From: Anaerolineales bacterium
GTDB lineage: Bacteria; Chloroflexota; Anaerolineae; Anaerolineales; UBA11858
DNA: 32,434 nt
Assembly (NCBI GenBank): GCA_021161345.1
Contig: JAGHAU010000236.1
Location: 1-32,434 of the forward strand
Reading direction: 5' to 3'
A program made the position numbers and the translations under genes. Positions 20,379-22,140 of this stretch are shown piece after piece. Every line of letters begins with the position of its first letter. The first letter of the stretch is position 1. The notes beneath the pieces are model-generated. The model had not been told where the DNA came from and did not search any database. It was given only the letters and a program-made list of their open reading frames with translations.

Positions 20379-20449
20379 TAATATTGGCACATATCCCGAA
20401 AAAATGCTTATGTTATACTAATCTGAAATCAAAACGGGAGTATTGTTTC

Positions 20450-20692
20450 ATGTATAAGGTATCTATTGAATATTGTGTGCCTTGAAATTACCATCCACGA
20501 GCTTTCAGTTTGGAAGACGCATTTAAAAAACAATACCCAGATATTGTCTCTGATATCGAGCTGATAGAGTCTGCTGGGGGAGCTTTTGAGATCAGAGTTG
20601 ATGGAGAATTGATCTATTCGAAATTGGAAACCGGACGCCACGCGGCCCCGCCGGAGATTTTAGGTTTGTTTAAAGCATATATTGAGGAGTAA
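20450..20692 (+). CDS. SelT/SelW/SelH (Rdx)-family selenoprotein with TGA read as Sec
   Basis: ATG 20450; in-frame read MYKVSIEYCVP(TGA)NYHPRAFSLEDAFKKQYPDIVSDIELIESAGGAFEIRVDGELIYSKLETGRHAAPPEILGLFKAYIEE; CxxU at the family redox motif; TGA at 20483-20485 is in frame with the ORF listed from 20510. Confidence 0.75.
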
Positions 20693-20697
20693 GTTGA

Positions 20698-21699
20698 ATG
20701 ACAGCAAAAAAAGGCAGGGTATTCTCGGGTGCTAGGCCGACTGGCCGGCAGCATCTGGGCAATTACCTGGGCGCAATCAAGAACTATGTGGCCATGCAGG
20801 ATGATTACCGCACCGTGTACTGCATCGTGGATATCCATGCCCTGACCACAGTCGAAACTACCAAAGATCTGGCGTTTAATACTCAGGAAATGGCCCTGGA
20901 CTGGTTGGCGGCGGGCATGGACCCCAAACAAAGTATCATCTTCGTCCAATCCCACGTCCCGGAAGTGATGGAATTGCATACGATCCTGTCGATGGTAACA
21001 CCCCTGGGGAAATTAACTGCCCTGCCAACCTTTAAGGAAAAAGTGCGCGACAACCCTGATAACGTTAACTATGGTTTGGTTGGTTATCCTGTTTTGATGT
21101 CGGCCGACATTTTGCTTTATAAGGCAGACGCCGTGCCGGTGGGTACGGACCAGATTCCCCACCTTGAATTTGCCAGGGAAGTGGTGCGTTCATTCAATTT
21201 CCACTATGAGACCGATGTACTGATTGAGCCCCAGGCTGTGATCACCAAGATCCCCAAAGTGCTGGGAATTGATGGGGAACGCAAGATGAGTAAAAGTCTC
21301 AATAATCACATCGAGCTGGCTGCAACACCCGAAGAAACAGAAAAACGGGTCATGAGCATGGTGACCGATCCCCAACGCCAGCGCCGCAACGATCCTGGCA
21401 ATCCGGATGTCTGCAACGTCTTCACACTGCACAAGATTTTCTCATCCGAGAATGAGGTTGAATCCATCAATAAGGATTGCCGCATTGCGGAGATCGGCTG
21501 CGTGGACTGCAAACGGAAACTAGCGGCCAATTTGAACAAACACCTGGAACCTTTCCGGGCTAAAAGAAAAGAGCTGGAGGGGGATCCGGATTATGTCAGG
21601 GATGTCCTGCTAGATGGTGCCAAGCGAGCTAAAGTGATCGCCGCTGAAACAATGGCAGAAGTCCGGGAAGCGATCGGGTTTTATGGTGTTAAGGGATAA
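20698..21699 (+). CDS. trpS: tryptophanyl-tRNA synthetase
   Basis: VFSGARPTGRQHLGNYLGAIKNYV (HIGH-like) and DGERKMSKSLNNHI (KMSKS). Confidence 0.96.
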   Translation: MTAKKGRVFSGARPTGRQHLGNYLGAIKNYVAMQDDYRTVYCIVDIHALTTVETTKDLAFNTQEMALDWLAAGMDPKQSIIFVQSHVPEVMELHTILSMVTPLGKLTALPTFKEKVRDNPDNVNYGLVGYPVLMSADILLYKADAVPVGTDQIPHLEFAREVVRSFNFHYETDVLIEPQAVITKIPKVLGIDGERKMSKSLNNHIELAATPEETEKRVMSMVTDPQRQRRNDPGNPDVCNVFTLHKIFSSENEVESINKDCRIAEIGCVDCKRKLAANLNKHLEPFRAKRKELEGDPDYVRDVLLDGAKRAKVIAAETMAEVREAIGFYGVKG

Positions 21700-21702
21700 A
21701 AA

Positions 21703-22140
21703 TTGAAAGCGATCCTTCAGCGAGTTCAATCGGGAAGTGTCTCGGTAGACGGGAATAAAATTGCCGAGATTCGGGCTGGCCTTGTGATCCTGCTGGGTGT
21801 TGGACCTGCCGACACTAAGGCTGAAGCGGATAAGTTGGCTCTGAAACTGGCCCAGATGAGGATTTTCCCTGATAATAATGGGAAAATGAATCTCTCTCTC
21901 CTGGATGTGAGCGGAGAAGCCCTGGTAGTGCCCCAATTTACTCTCTTTGCAGATACGAAAAAAGGCCATCGGCCATCATTTGTCCATGCGGGTCCTCCGG
22001 AGATCGCCAAACCACTTACAGATCATTTTGCTTCGGCGCTTCGAAAACTGGGTGTTCCCACCCAGGAGGGAGAGTTTGGAGCTCATATGCTGGTCGAGAT
22101 CCACAATGATGGTCCTGTGACGATTGAGGTGGAGGTATAG
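21703..22140 (+). CDS. dtd: D-aminoacyl-tRNA deacylase
   Basis: MKAILQRVQSGSVSVDG, LSLLDVSGEALVVPQFTLFADTKKGHRPSF, GEFGAHMLVEIHNDGPVTIEVE; TTG start. Confidence 0.96.
   Translation: MKAILQRVQSGSVSVDGNKIAEIRAGLVILLGVGPADTKAEADKLALKLAQMRIFPDNNGKMNLSLLDVSGEALVVPQFTLFADTKKGHRPSFVHAGPPEIAKPLTDHFASALRKLGVPTQEGEFGAHMLVEIHNDGPVTIEVEV

Follow-up and report, generated by a model that had tools for sequence, protein, structure and literature searches.

A SelW-like gene with an in-frame TGA, very probably encoding a selenoprotein, in a Chloroflexota bacterium

Nucleotides 20450-20692 of the window, by which we mean the whole 32,434-nucleotide stretch of Chloroflexota DNA analysed here, raise a simple question. 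Is the TGA within a SelW-like (Rdx) reading frame a stop codon, or is it read as selenocysteine (Sec)? The initial annotation proposed a missed selenoprotein gene. Our analysis supports this interpretation, on the strength of the TGA column in relatives, tRNA-Sec, SelB, covariation in the SECIS hairpin and linkage to trpS. We put the probability that this is a genuine SelW-like selenoprotein gene, with UGA read as Sec under SECIS direction, at about 97%. In the proposed mechanism, UGA codon 12 would be decoded by SelB carrying Sec-tRNA(UCA). Decoding would be directed by a bacterial SECIS (bSECIS) hairpin immediately 3' of the UGA. The product would be a small oxidoreductase with a thioredoxin-like fold and the active site Cys9-x-x-Sec12, and may be expected to have redox activity.

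The features of the locus are listed in Table 1. Translation of the frame that starts at ATG 20450 gives MYKVSIEYCVP-TGA-NYHPRAFSLEDAFKKQYPDIVSDIELIESAGGAFEIRVDGELIYSKLETGRHAAPPEILGLFKAYIEE, up to a TAA codon. The codon TTG 20510 shares this frame. Hence, the ordinary ORF call for the SelW gene is shortened and starts at TTG 20510. The position of the TGA upstream of this TTG, as given in the initial annotation, was confirmed. The read-through product matches Pfam Rdx (PF10262; 7.3e-20, 71.4 bits, cut-off 22.6), NCBIfam TIGR02174 (CXXU_selWTH; 1.5e-18, 66.8 bits, cut-off 34.2) and NCBIfam NF041051 (3.5e-25). The TGA occupies the second redox position (CVPU). These matches bear out the earlier assignment to SelW/Rdx-like proteins with a CVPU motif.

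Table 1. Features of the predicted SelW gene and its surroundings (window coordinates).
Feature	Coordinates	Strand	Description	Evidence
Shine-Dalgarno-like GGGAG	20436..20440	+	putative; 9 nt before ATG 20450	read from sequence
SelW/Rdx-like selenoprotein gene (predicted)	20450..20692	+	80 aa, MYKVSIEYCVPUNYHPRAFSLEDAF...KAYIEE; start ATG 20450, stop TAA 20690-20692	Rdx/TIGR02174/NF041051 matches; 34 relatives with in-frame TGA
CxxU redox motif	20474..20485	+	Cys9 (TGT 20474-20476)-Val-Pro-Sec12 (TGA 20483-20485)	TGA at this column in 30/30 genes checked within the order
Bacterial SECIS apical hairpin (predicted)	20502..20516	+	CUUUC-AGUUU-GGAAG; conserved apical G at 20508	covariation; RNA-level constraint beyond codons
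trpS, tryptophanyl-tRNA synthetase	20698..21699	+	5 nt after SelW stop	TIGR00233 6.8e-95
dtd, D-aminoacyl-tRNA deacylase	21703..22140	+	next gene of likely operon	TIGR00256 1.1e-47

The window genome was compared with 60 related genomes (61 in total). A SelW gene was found in 34 of the 60 relatives (35/61 including the window genome), and each strong match contained one in-frame TGA. Two matches also overran their own C-terminal stop. Identity of the relatives' proteins to the window protein ranged from 75% down to 36%. In 30 genes of the order, namely the window gene and 29 from other assemblies, the codon aligned to position 12 was inspected at the nucleotide level. In this alignment, a check suggested alongside the initial annotation, the codon was TGA in 30/30 and Cys in none; position 9 was TGT or TGC. 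The TGA is kept across many families of the order, and was never TAA or TAG. Few stretches of the alignment are as well conserved as the N-terminal part with CxxU. Between the window gene and two same-genus relatives, substitutions on either side of the TGA fell mostly at third codon positions. An independent scan of a genome collection added SelW relatives from Actinomycetota, Planctomycetota and Verrucomicrobiota, nearly all with TGA. Cys was present at the Sec column in one planctomycete and one Rhizobium.

A hairpin downstream of the TGA, CUUUC-AGUUU-GGAAG, had been described in the initial annotation as compatible with a SECIS. The hairpin is there, with its apical-loop G ~22 nt after the UGA, and comparative covariation backs it. 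Single-sequence support is weak. The 48-nt segment 20483-20530, folded alone, was no better than shuffles (z = +0.36) and its minimum-energy fold was a different hairpin. A scan of the window at Rfam gathering score gave no match. Conversely, the comparative test was positive. Its input was the gap-free alignment of the order's 30 genes over the 42 bases from the TGA. Standard pairs filled 90.7% of cells in the five-pair stem; shuffling lowered this to 79.4% on average, and sliding the stem to 13-62%. Four of the five pairs have changes on both sides, and the covariation score was 0.473 (0.228 shuffled). With RNAalifold, the inner three pairs alone were recovered from the alignment, at low energy. 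The loop-closing pair is broken in four genes (L024, L030, L031 and L039).

The second loop position is G in 30/30 genes, across Ser, Gly and Arg codons. Where serine is encoded in the loop the codon is always AGY (23/23), compared with 29/82 serines elsewhere in the region (p = 4e-9). Synonymous recoding of the stem (2000 trials) never exceeded 82% paired cells or 13 complete stems; the real alignment has 20 complete stems. Since recoding fails to reach the observed pairing, and the loop serine is always AGY, selection acts on both the RNA and the protein. Judged by this comparison, the hairpin after the TGA is a conserved bSECIS and more than chance. Computationally, the frame, the TGA column and the SECIS are all conserved. 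We infer, with high confidence, that Sec is inserted at the UGA. In Planctomycetaceae SP4 (L057), SelW has Cys (TGC) and close TGA relatives keep the hairpin; the L057 gene retains the loop AGU, on a weakened stem. This looks like a recent Sec-to-Cys change.

Machinery for Sec insertion was sought in the host draft genome (2.69 Mb, 288 contigs, 89% complete). A tRNA-Sec with a UCA anticodon (C79:2974-3068, 70.5 bits) and SelB (C143:5309-7177; 326.6 bits, cut-off 242) were identified. For selA, there was no accepted match in this draft. For selD, the best match scored 58 bits, far under the cut-off of 125, and was rejected as SelD. The machinery search put forward with the initial annotation was thus answered for tRNA-Sec and SelB and left without selA and selD. 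The relative G007 has selA flanked by a peptidase gene and dnaA, both named by inspection of translations. In the host, contig C237 runs out within the peptidase gene (4045 of 4045), and contig C54 has dnaA at its end (11691 of 11695). Hence, the selA interval of the host is an assembly gap. A gene conserved beside selD in four same-genus relatives was not found in the host draft assembly, in a search run without a positive control. The missing selD and neighbour are consistent with an unassembled region, a softer case than that of selA.

Among same-genus relatives, selA is present in 9/9 and full-length selD in 8/9, where it too contains a TGA in frame. In the order, every selD copy above cut-off (L096-L101 and others in relatives) has one in-frame TGA; by this pattern, selD of the order is predicted to be itself a selenoprotein gene. 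Of the 61 genomes, 47 have selA or tRNA-Sec, and 34 of these have SelW; of the 14 without, one has SelW (Fisher p = 1.7e-5, kinship ignored). In that one genome (G022), a short piece of selA lies close to the end of a contig. The split selA of G021 straddles an assembly gap (N), and that of G034 is in two overlapping frames. Candidate tRNA-Sec genes in relatives without a clear match were called tRNA-Ser by ARAGORN, and so were rejected; one candidate at a contig end (G013, L088) drew no ARAGORN call. Three genomes (G033, G034 and G047) have SelW with TGA, and selA, and no tRNA-Sec was found in them even under a laxer search. Either an assembly gap or a divergent tRNA-Sec would account for these.

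Could the TGA be a sequencing or assembly error for TGT or TGC, in a gene for Cys-containing SelW? The host assembly is a draft in many contigs, and selA and selD were not found. However, 29 of the 30 genes with TGA come from other assemblies, the SECIS hairpin is conserved, and the genome has tRNA-Sec and SelB. The presence of the TGA in relatives at 36-75% identity rules out a sequencing error, and we consider this explanation vanishingly improbable. It is also extremely improbable that the TGA is a true stop, with the locus a pseudogene or yielding the product of the TTG 20510 ORF alone. The short ORF in the ORF track, and the absence of selA and selD from the assembly, fit a true stop. Conversely, the sequence is constrained as coding both before and after the TGA, the conserved N-terminal part includes CxxU, and the codon stays TGA in family after family, with TAA and TAG never taking its place.

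A recent loss of selA and selD from the lineage, leaving SelW as a relic not yet decayed, is very improbable. It would fit the absence of selA, selD and the selD neighbour from an 89%-complete assembly. However, the selA interval falls at two contig ends, the same-genus relatives have selA and, with one exception, full-length selD, and SelB, tRNA-Sec and SelW are intact. The initial annotation had named two outcomes that would count against it: a genome without selA, selB, selC and selD and close relatives without Sec at this column, or TGT/TGC in place of the TGA. Neither was found; tRNA-Sec and SelB are present, the selA interval is in an assembly gap and close relatives all have TGA. Our preferred reading remains a functional SelW-like selenoprotein gene.

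The SelW gene ends just before trpS, as noted initially, with the trpS ATG at 20698. This adjacency is kept in 25 of the 29 relatives examined (one is a fragment at a contig end). The dtd gene is a neighbour of SelW in three other relatives and lies near SelW in 18 in all. The short spacing suggests that SelW and trpS are on one transcript. A functional link of SelW to aminoacyl-tRNA handling or translation quality control, rather than mere inherited order, is an unlikely reason for the order-wide SelW-trpS-dtd arrangement. On the other side of SelW, between an HD/GAF gene and SelW, one frame of segment 20115-20325 (+) resembles the C-terminal part of a sortase and contains LFTCESYGEYWGDYGYRRMVQAVLV. 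Its match to Pfam Sortase (E = 0.0011) is below the family cut-off. The segment is probably a remnant of a sortase gene.

Among known selenoproteins of marine bacteria, the SelW-like kind is one of the most abundant (PMC1088965, PMC2398784). In the Global Ocean Sampling set, 427 SelW-like selenoproteins stand beside 56 Cys homologues (PMC2398784). Few or no Cys homologues were reported in Sec-using bacteria (PMC1794560), and this scarcity agrees with the absence of Cys SelW forms from the order. A 2022 review lists a SELENOW-like protein with pfam10262 and CxxU (PMC9312934). Bacterial SelW-like selenoproteins (PF10262, TIGR02174) resemble the window gene in CxxU, a length of ~80 aa and the Rdx domain (PMC1088965, PMC2398784, PMC9312934). 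In them, too, a bacterial SECIS with an apical-loop G follows the UGA directly. There is no difference in kind; what sets the window gene apart is its place in Chloroflexota and its conserved linkage to trpS and dtd. Similarity of the window protein to eukaryotic selenoprotein W (PDB 2npb) is weak (E = 0.012), with the CxxU site in common. The eukaryotic SECIS is in the 3' UTR (PMC1088965), whereas that of the window gene is inside the coding region. The Cys-containing Rdx protein Atu0228 (PDB 2fa8) belongs to the same family (E = 1.5e-8). A Rhizobium Rdx (L067) has CxxC and lacks a matching SECIS hairpin, whereas the window gene has CxxU and the hairpin.

At the level of sequence, the window gene has every feature by which a SelW-like selenoprotein is recognised. 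The family is well known, the biology is ordinary and our understanding of selenium use is unchanged. The analysis corrects the annotation, in which the SelW protein, as called by ordinary ORF finding, lacks its catalytic N-terminal quarter. It also documents the SelW-like selenoprotein across an order of Chloroflexota, with the gene identifiable in 34/60 related genomes.
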